DNA of 64,000 nt from Sphingomonas sp. So64.6b (lineage in GTDB: Bacteria; Pseudomonadota; Alphaproteobacteria; Sphingomonadales; Sphingomonadaceae). The notes beneath the pieces are model-generated. The model had not been told where the DNA came from, did no database searches, and worked only from the letters and a program-made list of their open reading frames with translations. The stretch lies in contig NZ_CP048817.1 in assembly GCF_014171475.1 (NCBI RefSeq), positions 2,232,001-2,296,000 of the forward strand, written 5' to 3'. Shown here one piece after another: positions 61,131-64,000 of this stretch (the first letter of the stretch is position 1; each line of letters starts with the position of its first letter). The translations under genes and the position numbers were made by a program.

Positions 61131-61262
61131 ATGGACAAGATTCAGCAGACCATCGCGACCGAAGCGAAGCCCGTCTGGACCGCTCCGGTAATCGATGTCG
61201 TTTCCGCGCAGACGACCGCTGGCGGCGCGGCCGTTCCGGTTGAGAACCTCACGTCTTCCTGA
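61131..61262 (+). CDS. RiPP precursor peptide with lasso-like leader (43 aa)
   Basis: ATG 61131 has AAGGGG 8 nt upstream. The leader ends VWTAPVIDVVSAQTTA, carrying W16-x-x-P19-x-I21, the aromatic-Pro-aliphatic pattern recognised by lasso B1 proteins, and Thr at -2 of the likely cut. The proposed core is GGAAVPVENLTSS: Gly1 could join Glu8 in an 8-residue ring with a 5-residue tail NLTSS. A 9-residue ring from Ala30 to Glu38 is also possible. The tail lacks a large plug residue, so a true lasso thread is uncertain. A hairpin follows before the cyclase-like gene. Confidence 0.72.
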   Translation: MDKIQQTIATEAKPVWTAPVIDVVSAQTTAGGAAVPVENLTSS

Positions 61263-61272
61263 TTTTCAAGAG

Positions 61273-61301
61273 CTGACAAACGGTTACCGCCGATTTGTCA
61301 G
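61273..61301 (+). other. First hairpin after the RiPP precursor
   Basis: CTGACAAA (61273-61280) pairs with TTTGTCAG (61294-61301), starting 10 nt after the precursor stop. It could protect the precursor mRNA from decay. Confidence 0.5.
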
Positions 61302-61319
61302 TCCGCTACGCTTTACGGG

Positions 61320-61348
61320 CAGCCATCGCTTCGGCGATGGCTGTTTTT
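61320..61348 (+). terminator. Terminator/attenuator between RiPP precursor and cyclase genes
   Basis: CAGCCATCGC (61320-61329), a TTCG tetraloop and GCGATGGCTG (61334-61343) form a perfect stem followed by five Ts. It lies 80 bp before the cyclase-like gene. Partial termination here would give more precursor than enzyme, as is common in RiPP operons. Confidence 0.88.
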
Positions 61349-61427
61349 GTGATTTGACGGGCTGATTGTGCTCGCGCACCCTGACTCCTCATCCTGGCCG
61401 AATCGGCGATGGAGCCGGAGCTAATTC

Positions 61428-63329
61428 ATGTCCATTTGCGGGCGCGCTACCTGTTCCTCCGATGACCCACGGCCAATCGACCGTACGCTCGCCGCGCTGA
61501 CGCTCGGATCACCGCGCCTCCGTGTCCAGACTCTCGTGGACGGCGCACGGATCGCAGGATGCGACGGTGCCTCCGTCGCGGCGGCACCGGGCGGTCGGGG
61601 GGCGGCGTTCGATGGGCGAATCGACAATGGCGAAGATTTACGGCGCGCGCTGAACATCGGCGCTGGCGAAGCGCGCAGCGCCGCACAGCTTGTGCTGGCC
61701 GCCCATGCCGCCTGGGGTGACGCGCTTTGCGACCATGTCATTGGCGATTACGCCCTGGCCGTATGGAACGGCGCAACGCGGCGCATGATGCTGGCGGTTG
61801 ACCCTGGGGCTTTCCGGCCGCTCTTCTACTGGCTCGGTGCCGGACAGATGCTGTTTGCGACCGAGCAGCGCGGCTTATGGGCCGATCCAGAGGTGCCTAA
61901 AGAGGTCGATGAGCGGCAGATGGCGCACTGGCTCGCGATGATGCCGCGCGATCCCGATCGCAGTTTCTTCGTCGATATCTGCAACGTGCCCCCCGGCCAT
62001 CGCGTGGTGTGGGAAGGCGGCAAGGCCCGGAGCGAGCGGTGGTGGCAGCCCGAAACGCTGCCGATCCTGAAACTGAAGACCGATCAGGATTATGAGGAGG
62101 TCCTGCGCGCCACGCTCGACCAAGCCGTACGATGCCGGATCGGCGCGGATGAAAAGATCGGCGTCCAGCTGAGCGGCGGACTCGACAGCACCGCAGTGAC
62201 CGCGATGGCCGCTCGCGCGCTGGACGAACAGGGACGCGGGCTCACCGCCTTCACCGCCGCCCCGGCGAAACCCGTCCAGATCGAAACCCGAAACCGTTTC
62301 AGCGACGAATGGACCCATGCGGCGGCGCTGGCGGCGATGTATCCCAATATCGAACATGTCCGCATCGCGAATGACGAGATGCCGGTATTGGAGGCGGTGG
62401 AAGGACGCGAAGGCGGGCAGGATTGGCCGATCCTGAATGCCAGCAACACCGTGTGGGTCGACGGCATCGACCGCGCGGCGCGAGATCGGCGGATCGACGT
62501 GATGCTGATCGGTGCGATGGGCAATTTCACGATCAGCCATGACGGCATGGCCGCCTTTGGACAACAGTTGCGGCAGGGCCGGCTGTTGACCGCGCTGGAA
62601 ACCGGAATGGCGATGCGGCGCAATGGCGGCCAGCGCTGGTTGAATCTGCTGAACCATGCGGCTGCGGCGTTGCTCCCCAACGCCGCGCTGCGCAGGCTTC
62701 GCTCATTCGCCGGCAAGCGCGACATGGGGCTGTTCGACTATTCGATCGCCAGCCGCGCCTTCCTGAACGAGACCGGGACGGAGGACGACGCCAGAGCGGT
62801 GGCCGGCAATCTCTACAATCTTGCCGGCGGCGATTCGCGCAAATTGCGACTGCTGGCGCTCGCGCGCTCCAGTCATCGTGGTCAACAATATTGGTCGTCA
62901 CGCCGCCTTTATGGCCTCGACGTCCGCGATCCGACCGGCGATCGCCGCCTGATCGAGCTGGCGCTGATGATCCCCGACGAAAAATGGATGCGCGACGGTG
63001 TGCCACGCGCGCTGCTTCGCCACGCGATGGCCGGGCTGGTTCCCGATCTCATTTTGAACGAGCGCCGAAGAGGGCTGCAAGGGGCCGACTGGCAGCTTGG
63101 GTTCGAGGAGGCATTACCCGGCCTGAAAGCGGAACTCGGCAGGCTGCGCCACAGCCCGCTGGCGGCGCGCGCGCTCGATCTCGACCGGATGGAAAAGCTG
63201 CTTGAAGACTGGCCGGGGGCCTATGCGGCAAGTAGCGCGGATGACGCGAACACCGCCTATCTGCTCGCGGTGAGCCGGGGCATCACCGCCGGCCGTTTCA
63301 TCCGCCGGATGGAGGGCGGCAACCAGTGA
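61428..63329 (+). CDS. Asparagine-synthase-like protein, probable lasso-type macrolactam synthetase
   Basis: A 633-aa protein with an N-terminal Ntn-like domain and an ATP-pyrophosphatase domain with SGGLDST at 249-255. Active asparagine synthases begin MCG, with Cys1 as nucleophile; here it is MSICGR, with Cys at position 4, so glutaminase activity is doubtful. That is also typical of McjC-type lasso cyclases, which adenylate an Asp/Glu side chain and let the N-terminal amine attack. It directly follows the precursor gene. GGAG lies 8 nt before ATG 61428. Alternative: a different amide-forming role. Confidence 0.8.
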   Translation: MSICGRATCSSDDPRPIDRTLAALTLGSPRLRVQTLVDGARIAGCDGASVAAAPGGRGAAFDGRIDNGEDLRRALNIGAGEARSAAQLVLAAHAAWGDALCDHVIGDYALAVWNGATRRMMLAVDPGAFRPLFYWLGAGQMLFATEQRGLWADPEVPKEVDERQMAHWLAMMPRDPDRSFFVDICNVPPGHRVVWEGGKARSERWWQPETLPILKLKTDQDYEEVLRATLDQAVRCRIGADEKIGVQLSGGLDSTAVTAMAARALDEQGRGLTAFTAAPAKPVQIETRNRFSDEWTHAAALAAMYPNIEHVRIANDEMPVLEAVEGREGGQDWPILNASNTVWVDGIDRAARDRRIDVMLIGAMGNFTISHDGMAAFGQQLRQGRLLTALETGMAMRRNGGQRWLNLLNHAAAALLPNAALRRLRSFAGKRDMGLFDYSIASRAFLNETGTEDDARAVAGNLYNLAGGDSRKLRLLALARSSHRGQQYWSSRRLYGLDVRDPTGDRRLIELALMIPDEKWMRDGVPRALLRHAMAGLVPDLILNERRRGLQGADWQLGFEEALPGLKAELGRLRHSPLAARALDLDRMEKLLEDWPGAYAASSADDANTAYLLAVSRGITAGRFIRRMEGGNQ

Positions 63330-63333
63330 ATAG

Positions 63334-64000
63334 TTACAGATAGCCGAGCCGGCGCATCGTCGCGCCATGATCGTCGGCGATTCGCGCGGCAACCGTTCCC
63401 GGCATCGCCTCACGCCAACCGCCTGCGCGCCCGGAGCGAAAAAATGGCGCATTCGACCCTCCAAGCCGCTCGGCGAATCCATCACGCGTCTCCTGCCTCA
63501 CAAGGACATCGAACGACGACGATTCAACCGCCCGCGCGATCGTCGCATCATCCTCCTTACGCCCGAGAAACCGCGCAGCGGCGGTGAACGACGCGACCGG
63601 ATCGGTGATCATATCCTCGTAACGTATCAGCCGGACCGGAAAATCAGATTGATCGAGCCAGCTCCGAACGTGCCCGCTCCAGGTCGATACGAACTGGTAG
63701 ATCTGCCGGTTCGAGTGCTTGCCGCTGGTACCCAGCGCGAAATCGGGATCGGCCATGTCGTCGACTATCCTGGCCAATGGTTTGCCGAAATGATGGACGC
63801 AGGACAGCGCCACATCACGTGGGTCACGCACGATCAGGATCGCCCGGTCGATAATGTCGGCGGGAAAGGGCGGCTCGGTCGCGCCGGGCGGGACCAGCCA
63901 GGCGTCATGCGCCTTGACCGGTGCGGCGAATTCGCCTGCCACCCTGCGGCTGATCCAAGGTCGCACCCGCGCGATCTCGGCATTGCTCAGGTCGCCTGTG
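63334..64000 (-). CDS. Sulfotransferase (5' end outside window)
   Basis: The frame stays open to the right edge (residues 222 or so seen). It has the 3'-phosphate-binding motif of PAPS sulfotransferases, LIVRDPRDVALSCVHHF (Arg and Ser), and a C-terminal FFRSGRAGGWREAM matching the RxGxxGxW end. The 5'-phosphate P-loop lies outside. The family moves sulfate from PAPS to hydroxyls or amines. It is convergent with the cyclase gene with only 4 bp between stops. A tailoring role on the RiPP is an inference. Confidence 0.85.
   Translation of the reverse strand, partial: TGDLSNAEIARVRPWISRRVAGEFAAPVKAHDAWLVPPGATEPPFPADIIDRAILIVRDPRDVALSCVHHFGKPLARIVDDMADPDFALGTSGKHSNRQIYQFVSTWSGHVRSWLDQSDFPVRLIRYEDMITDPVASFTAAARFLGRKEDDATIARAVESSSFDVLVRQETRDGFAERLGGSNAPFFRSGRAGGWREAMPGTVAARIADDHGATMRRLGYL

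Follow-up and report, generated by a model that had tools for sequence, protein, structure and literature searches.

A lasso-type precursor-cyclase pair in Sphingomonas sp. So64.6b and a putative leader peptidase encoded elsewhere in the genome

The precursor gene and its relatives

The stretch of DNA analysed here (64,000 nucleotides, hereafter the window) covers positions 2232001-2296000 of the single-contig genome (5,057,175 bases) of Sphingomonas sp. So64.6b. Near its right end, the window contains a short precursor gene (A) and a gene for an AsnB-type cyclase (C), separated by a terminator-like hairpin (Table 1). A preliminary description of this DNA reported a 43-residue gene with a ribosome-binding site, a lasso-type leader motif with Thr at -2 and an AsnB-like gene carrying SGGLDST, all of which were confirmed. 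The sequence AAGGGG directly precedes the ATG of A, and third-position GC is 0.75 for A and 0.77 for C. Precursor A has no family match in Pfam or NCBIfam, and Rfam yielded no match at 60-64 kb of the window.

Table 1. Features of the window pair, its downstream genes and the remote block; positions refer to the window unless marked as genome positions.
Feature	Position	Strand	Remarks
Precursor gene A	61131-61262	+	43 aa, MDKIQQTIATEAKPVWTAPVIDVVSAQTTAGGAAVPVENLTSS; ORF read from the sequence
Leader of A	residues 1-30		W16-x-x-P19-x-I21; Thr29 at -2
Predicted core of A			GGAAVPVENLTSS, 13 residues; Glu38 at position 8, C-terminal Ser43
Terminator-like hairpin, then T-rich sequence	61317-61346	+	between A and C; 1 found against a shuffle mean of 0.6, weak evidence by itself
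AsnB-type macrolactam cyclase C	61428-63329	+	633 aa; GATase-like N-terminal domain lacking Cys2, SGGLDST ATP-binding loop
Sulfotransferase	63334-64000	-	cut by the right edge; start at ~64167 (genome ~2296167)
HprK-like kinase	genome ~2296173-2297083	-	in two frames
B1 (RRE, PqqD-like)	genome 2297088-2297411	-	~1.1 kb past the window edge
Standalone B2	genome 2199696-2200172		158 aa; ~93 kb from the window pair; sole standalone B2 in the genome
Kinase-sulfotransferase-B1-B2 block	genome 2199696-2202271		tight; all genes open

A search with the precursor returned three proteins, the window's own and two homologues with 86% and 67% identity, one of them from Sphingomonas sp. UYAg733, a strain that also encodes a 64%-identical cyclase. 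Conservation of the precursor, on which the preliminary description had made its reading depend, was borne out in a related strain. Both homologues share the leader MDKIQQTVATEAKPVWTAPVIDVV; the leaders are near-identical and the cores variable (...ATAVGAGVPNENLTSS and ...ATAVGGATQNDGVGTSS, compared with ...TTAGGAAVPVENLTSS in the window), which argues that A is more than a chance open reading frame. Thr-Ala (T29, A30) is kept in all three precursors, which places Thr at -2 and points to a core starting with Gly31, with cleavage predicted after Ala30 and Glu38 at core position 8. Both homologues carry Glu or Asp at this position and a C-terminal Ser, in agreement with the proposed role of Glu8 as the likely ring acceptor. 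The aligned -2 residue is Ala in precursors from Ancylobacter and Xanthobacteraceae.

The position of the acidic residue was compared among 22 compiled precursors, which were hand-picked from the search results, some of them trimmed to their ends. The distance from the leader Trp to an acidic residue is 22-24 positions in 21 of the 22 and 21 positions in the remaining one; with Trp at -15, this range corresponds to core positions 8-10. Shuffled cores carried an acidic residue in this range in a mean of 5.2 precursors, and none of 20,000 shuffles reached 21. For two precursors of the window's own genome, the fit improves if Trp is moved away from the core by one or two residues. All 22 precursors end in Ser, a feature that is partly selected because four of the finders required S, one of S/D/N/T or one of S/D/N/T/G as the last residue of an open reading frame. 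A finder without this filter recovered nine plausible precursors ending in Ser (loci L027, L028, L029, L030, L031, L037, L038, L046 and L062) and two that do not (L034 and L044).

Another precursor type, WxxPxLxxLGTxxDVAG..., occurs in many genomes of the family (L134-L151) and was excluded from the 22; several of its cores have no obvious acidic ring residue. It probably represents the Ile/Val(-2) class described in the available part of PMC10368454.

The cyclase

The best NCBIfam model for C is the lasso cyclase NF033535 (206 bits), under its cut-off of 525. An ordinary asparagine synthetase was rejected in view of the absence of Cys at position 2 in 29 of 29 rows of the cyclase family, the adjoining conserved precursor and the lasso cyclase as best model. 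A scan of genome contigs with the single cyclase protein identified no relative. The three same-genus cyclases closest by score (G181, G189 and G209; loci L261, L262 and L263) have a B2 gene 78-90 bp directly behind C; in the 16 kb read there, neither a precursor carrying the leader motif nor a gene for B1, a kinase or a sulfotransferase was picked up.

Genes following the pair

A sulfotransferase gene, convergent to C, begins 5 bp past it, and is followed by a gene for an HprK-like kinase and one for B1. Aligned to the 305-residue kinase of a relative, the kinase reads in one frame to residue 221 and in another from residue 217; its first part retains the P-loop, LHGS and DD stretches. Comparison of the kinase with solved structures by sequence gave weak rows only, HPr kinases among them. 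B1 contains a PqqD domain above the Pfam cut-off, its best NCBIfam model is lasso_PqqD_Bac (48.9 bits, under the cut-off of 80), and its best solved relatives are the TbiB1 structures 5v1u/5v1v (E 1e-9). No ABC transporter was picked up by eye in the 17-kb stretch around the window pair.

The preliminary description had presented the locus as a minimal, lasso-like pair. The analysis supports its lasso-like part, with an AsnB-like enzyme encoded beside the precursor, Thr at -2 and Glu8 as the likely acceptor in the ring; the minimal pair had to be abandoned since the locus runs on past the right edge, where the sulfotransferase, the frameshifted kinase and a lasso-type B1 directly follow.

A remote block with a putative leader peptidase

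The peptidase domain PF13471 was identified at three places in the genome and has no match in the cluster of the window pair. Two of these places are classical clusters in which it stands beside its own AsnB gene. The third is the standalone B2, which forms a block with a kinase, a sulfotransferase and a second B1; no Asn_synthase match or precursor was seen near this block. The lasso reading thereby withstood the search for B1 and B2 proposed in the preliminary description, with B1 just past the edge and B2 elsewhere in the genome.

The remote B2 scores 82.9 bits against the lasso B2 model NF033537 (cut-off 33), and its Cys97 and His132 are invariant in 12 aligned B2 proteins; sequence comparison with solved structures gave one chance-level row. 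The block kinase is unbroken, with an Hpr_kinase_C match of 26.7 bits, under the Pfam cut-off of 33.3. PqqD-family genes occur at two places in the genome, in the block and beside the window, and the two B1 proteins share 28% identity. A gene for a TonB-dependent-receptor-like protein adjoins the block (L005, 5166-7607) and may encode an uptake receptor for a product; a closely matching gene occupies the corresponding position in G169 and G283.

The genome contains ten Asn_synthase matches; the surroundings were read for eight, two short ones being left out. Three further precursor-cyclase pairs were identified at ~307 kb, 924 kb and 3.0 Mb, with no B1 or B2 near them. The C-terminal sequences of their precursors are NVTS, GPFGS and GPYGS, and the leaders have the motif RKPWx[ST]PxV[IF] in common; the window leader reads AKPVWTAPVI. 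The Sphingomonas metagenome-assembled genome (MAG) G003 encodes a B1 with 51% identity to that of the block and a kinase that reaches 383 bits when compared with the block kinase, and this B1-sulfotransferase-kinase set stands with a cyclase and a precursor with the leader RKPWSAPRVI. As an RKPW leader here adjoins a block-like set, the sequences suggest that the leaders of the scattered pairs are recognised by the B1 of the block and that the window leader goes with its own B1.

Phage tail-collar rows (PF07484-type; one was tested) lie beside several of the scattered pairs (L019, 3149-4926; L020, 7998-11561) and in relatives (L269, L270, L271 and L279). The two classical lasso-type clusters, at ~3.49 Mb and 1.46 Mb (L006 and L007), have candidate precursors ending in SDD and TDD; inspection by eye assigned a TonB receptor and an isopeptidase-like protein of the S9 type to one of these clusters.

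Distribution in public genomes

Among 80 loci kept from public genomes, those of Ancylobacter dichloromethanicus (L027) and Xanthobacteraceae 501b (L028) show the layout of the window, with A and C followed by convergent sulfotransferase, kinase and B1 genes and no B2; their kinases are unbroken. PF13471 was run on 12 of these genomes, ten of which have a match. Eight of the 12 contained C and B1 without B2 at the locus according to phmmer; B2 lies far away in G001-G004, on the same contig at a distance of ~32 kb in G006 and next to B1 in G009, and no PF13471 match was found in the genomes G007 and G008, both MAGs. Since phmmer with nine query proteins missed the divergent B2 beside B1 in G009, which PF13471 finds, the linkage counts rest on PF13471; further loci without a phmmer hit for B2 (e.g. 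L038, L047, L057, L059, L073, L081, L093 and L099) were left aside. No other pathway gene was detected by phmmer in the 17 kb around the remote B2 of G001, G002, G003 (contig C4) and G004. G003 encodes two further B2 genes, one of which adjoins B1 and the kinase. Tistrella mobilis (G004) has ten PqqD matches and a single B2; nine stretches cover its ten PqqD genes (L156-L164), and five of the nine hold a cyclase with B1.

At family level, C (E 1e-60) occurs in 21 of 149 genomes, the window's own included. B2 is present in all 20 other genomes with C, within 15 kb of C in 13 and not so in the other seven, as judged by eye from the coordinates; overall it occurs in 63 of 149 genomes and in 42 of the 128 without C. 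At genus level, C (E 1e-100) was identified in 39 of 295 genomes, own included, and B2 is present in 39 of 39 genomes with C compared with 91 of 256 without (130 of 295 overall). The 38 other genus genomes contain 58 C loci, 19 within 15 kb of B2 and 39 not, and half of these genomes (19 of 38) have no C locus within 15 kb of B2. Contig edges can mimic such separation and fragmented assemblies inflate the 19, seven of which consist of 1-5 contigs (G255, G256, G442, G169, G337, G407 and G335). In Fisher tests of co-occurrence, which ignore kinship and take in the B2 genes of classical clusters, the values were 3e-16 with all 39 genomes and 4e-9 with the 20 split ones, own included. At most eight (family C), four (genus C), 28 (family B2) and 14 (genus B2) first-look candidates were scored per genome; absences and locus numbers are therefore uncertain, and 58 is a lower bound for the cyclase loci. 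G003 and G355 have an identical cyclase and the same B2 places and are very probably one genome, thus not independent.

Seven B2 loci from split genomes differ in their content. In G283, an open kinase-sulfotransferase-B1-B2 block occurs without a cyclase; G169 combines the same four genes with a cyclase, and G256 with tail-collar genes, a cyclase and a precursor lying ~3 kb away. In G337 and G264, B2 is accompanied by B1, a kinase and a further cyclase that is weakly related; it stands with B1 only in G407 and alone in G335. The locus of the remote B2 thus frequently belongs to a more complete cluster, and the term 'unlinked' applies to cyclases above the survey threshold.

A tree was built from 39 cyclases, with 29 taken from the 58 genus loci, four from the window's own genome and six from G001-G004. 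It groups the window C with those of Ancylobacter and Xanthobacteraceae (support 94/80, not starred), and these three fall into a set of six (100/99) whose other members are Sphingomonas cyclases directly followed by B2. The window locus may therefore have been acquired by transfer. Mapped on the tree, the linked or unlinked state requires six changes, five of them forced by well-supported branches; the separation thus arose or was reversed repeatedly.

Proposed pathway and alternatives

We lean towards the view that the window pair belongs to a lasso-type RiPP system of the kinase class (paeninodin/SyanA-like) with dispersed genes, in which the leader peptidase acts in trans and probably serves several pairs. 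In this system, the adjacent B1 would bind the WxxPxI leader, and the B2 cysteine peptidase from the remote block would cut after Ala30. C, with ATP, would then join the N-terminal Gly1 to the side chain of Glu8, yielding an 8-residue macrolactam ring with the tail NLTSS. A kinase, and perhaps also a sulfotransferase, would tailor the C-terminal end; because the local kinase is frameshifted, the intact kinase of the block is proposed for this step. The same block would probably serve the three scattered pairs. The combination of the window's layout with a B2 elsewhere, which recurs in Ancylobacter and Xanthobacteraceae, supports this reading. Against it stand the scores of C and B1 under the NCBIfam lasso cut-offs, the two MAGs with C and B1 and no PF13471 match, the two other B proteins in classical clusters of the genome and the presence of a cyclase of its own beside the 'hub' B2 in several genomes.

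About as likely as not is the broader proposal that an unclustered B2 matures several unrelated, scattered lasso-type pairs in numerous Sphingomonas and in certain other alphaproteobacteria (Tistrella and Ancylobacter), as a hub which in some genomes lies within a kinase-sulfotransferase-B1-B2 block lacking precursor and cyclase.

Three alternatives were weighed. The first concerns topology only and is compatible with the dispersed system: the same enzymes would form the same ring, and the short tail would remain unthreaded. We regard this as rather unlikely. The closest precursors have tails of 5-6 residues without bulky plugs (NLTSS in the window, GVGTSS, GTGTS and SGVSS), which recur in relatives and are thus a family trait, and C scores far under the lasso model cut-off; on the other hand, the spacing of the acidic residue is lasso-like, B1 and B2 are of the lasso type, and a C-terminal phosphate or sulfate could, speculatively, serve as a plug.

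An unlikely alternative is a decaying cluster that yields no mature product now, its local kinase being broken and B2 lost from behind C. B2 is directly behind C in G181, G189 and G209, and so may simply have been lost at the window locus, where the sulfotransferase occupies this place; the kinase frameshift fits such decay as well, but could be a sequencing error. In contrast to the expectation for a decaying cluster, A, C, the sulfotransferase and B1 are all open, the same layout occurs in Ancylobacter and Xanthobacteraceae, where the kinase is unbroken and B2 remote, and the block without its own A and C is open both here and in G283.

Less probable still is removal of the leader by other means, by a classical-cluster B protein, by a C39-type transporter or without a dedicated peptidase. 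The genome has two classical B genes, and in some fully unlinked genomes all B2 frames listed exceed 200 codons (e.g. G399). Precedents are a bifunctional peptidase/transporter for cochonodin I and pseudomycoidin, which is made without leader and leader peptidase, as mentioned in the accessible part of PMC10885120. Against transport-coupled cleavage speak the absence of a C39 domain from three ABC transporters beside related pairs and the lack of any ABC transporter visible by eye in the 17 kb around the window pair.

Searches for lasso peptides generally look for A, B and C genes that adjoin each other. If a core peptidase acts in trans for scattered pairs, some pathways have been judged incomplete or missed, and a hub-and-spoke lasso system would be overlooked by cluster-based genome mining. 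One peptidase would then have to accept several unrelated cores, and the short cores made by this common machinery, which includes a kinase and a sulfotransferase, would form a natural set.

Comparison with known systems

With its AsnB-type C, B1 and B2 as separate proteins and an HprK-like kinase, the proposed system resembles those of paeninodin (PadeK), ThcoK, SyanK of Sphingobium yanoikuyae and BsfK, as far as the accessible parts of the sources describe them (PMC8498205, PMC9266682, PMC10368454). In this class, the kinase phosphorylates the C-terminal Ser of the precursor before folding, sometimes several times (PMC8498205, PMC9266682), and lasso kinases carry a His-Lys-Asp-Asp motif (PMC9266682). 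The window precursor shares the terminal Ser of this class; in the bsf system, the kinase target in BsfA is Ser3, and B1 aids kinase and peptidase alike (PMC10368454). Unlike in kinase-class systems, B2 is remote from the window pair, the core has 13 residues and the tail five. The sulfotransferase also sets the locus apart; one is mentioned for a Firmicutes cluster in the part of PMC8498205 that was available.

Classical sphingomonad lasso clusters, including the two of this genome and that for sphingocin in Sphingomonas BPH (PMC11006600, in part), likewise encode a precursor, a B peptidase and an AsnB-type C. Unlike the window locus, they have B beside C, and the two candidate precursors of this genome end in Asp-Asp; inspection by eye of the sequence around these two clusters revealed no kinase gene.

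We found no report of an unclustered lasso B2 in the open-access literature searched, where SyanK was covered through reviews, so that this is no proof of absence. The closest parallels are other maturation enzymes encoded away from their clusters. The PAD gene of citrulassin is also distant (PMC9266682, in part), but encodes an optional tailoring enzyme and not the core leader peptidase. Unclustered lanthipeptide proteases, as presented in the available part of PMC8960859, share the separation of a maturation enzyme from its cluster with the system proposed here and belong to another class.
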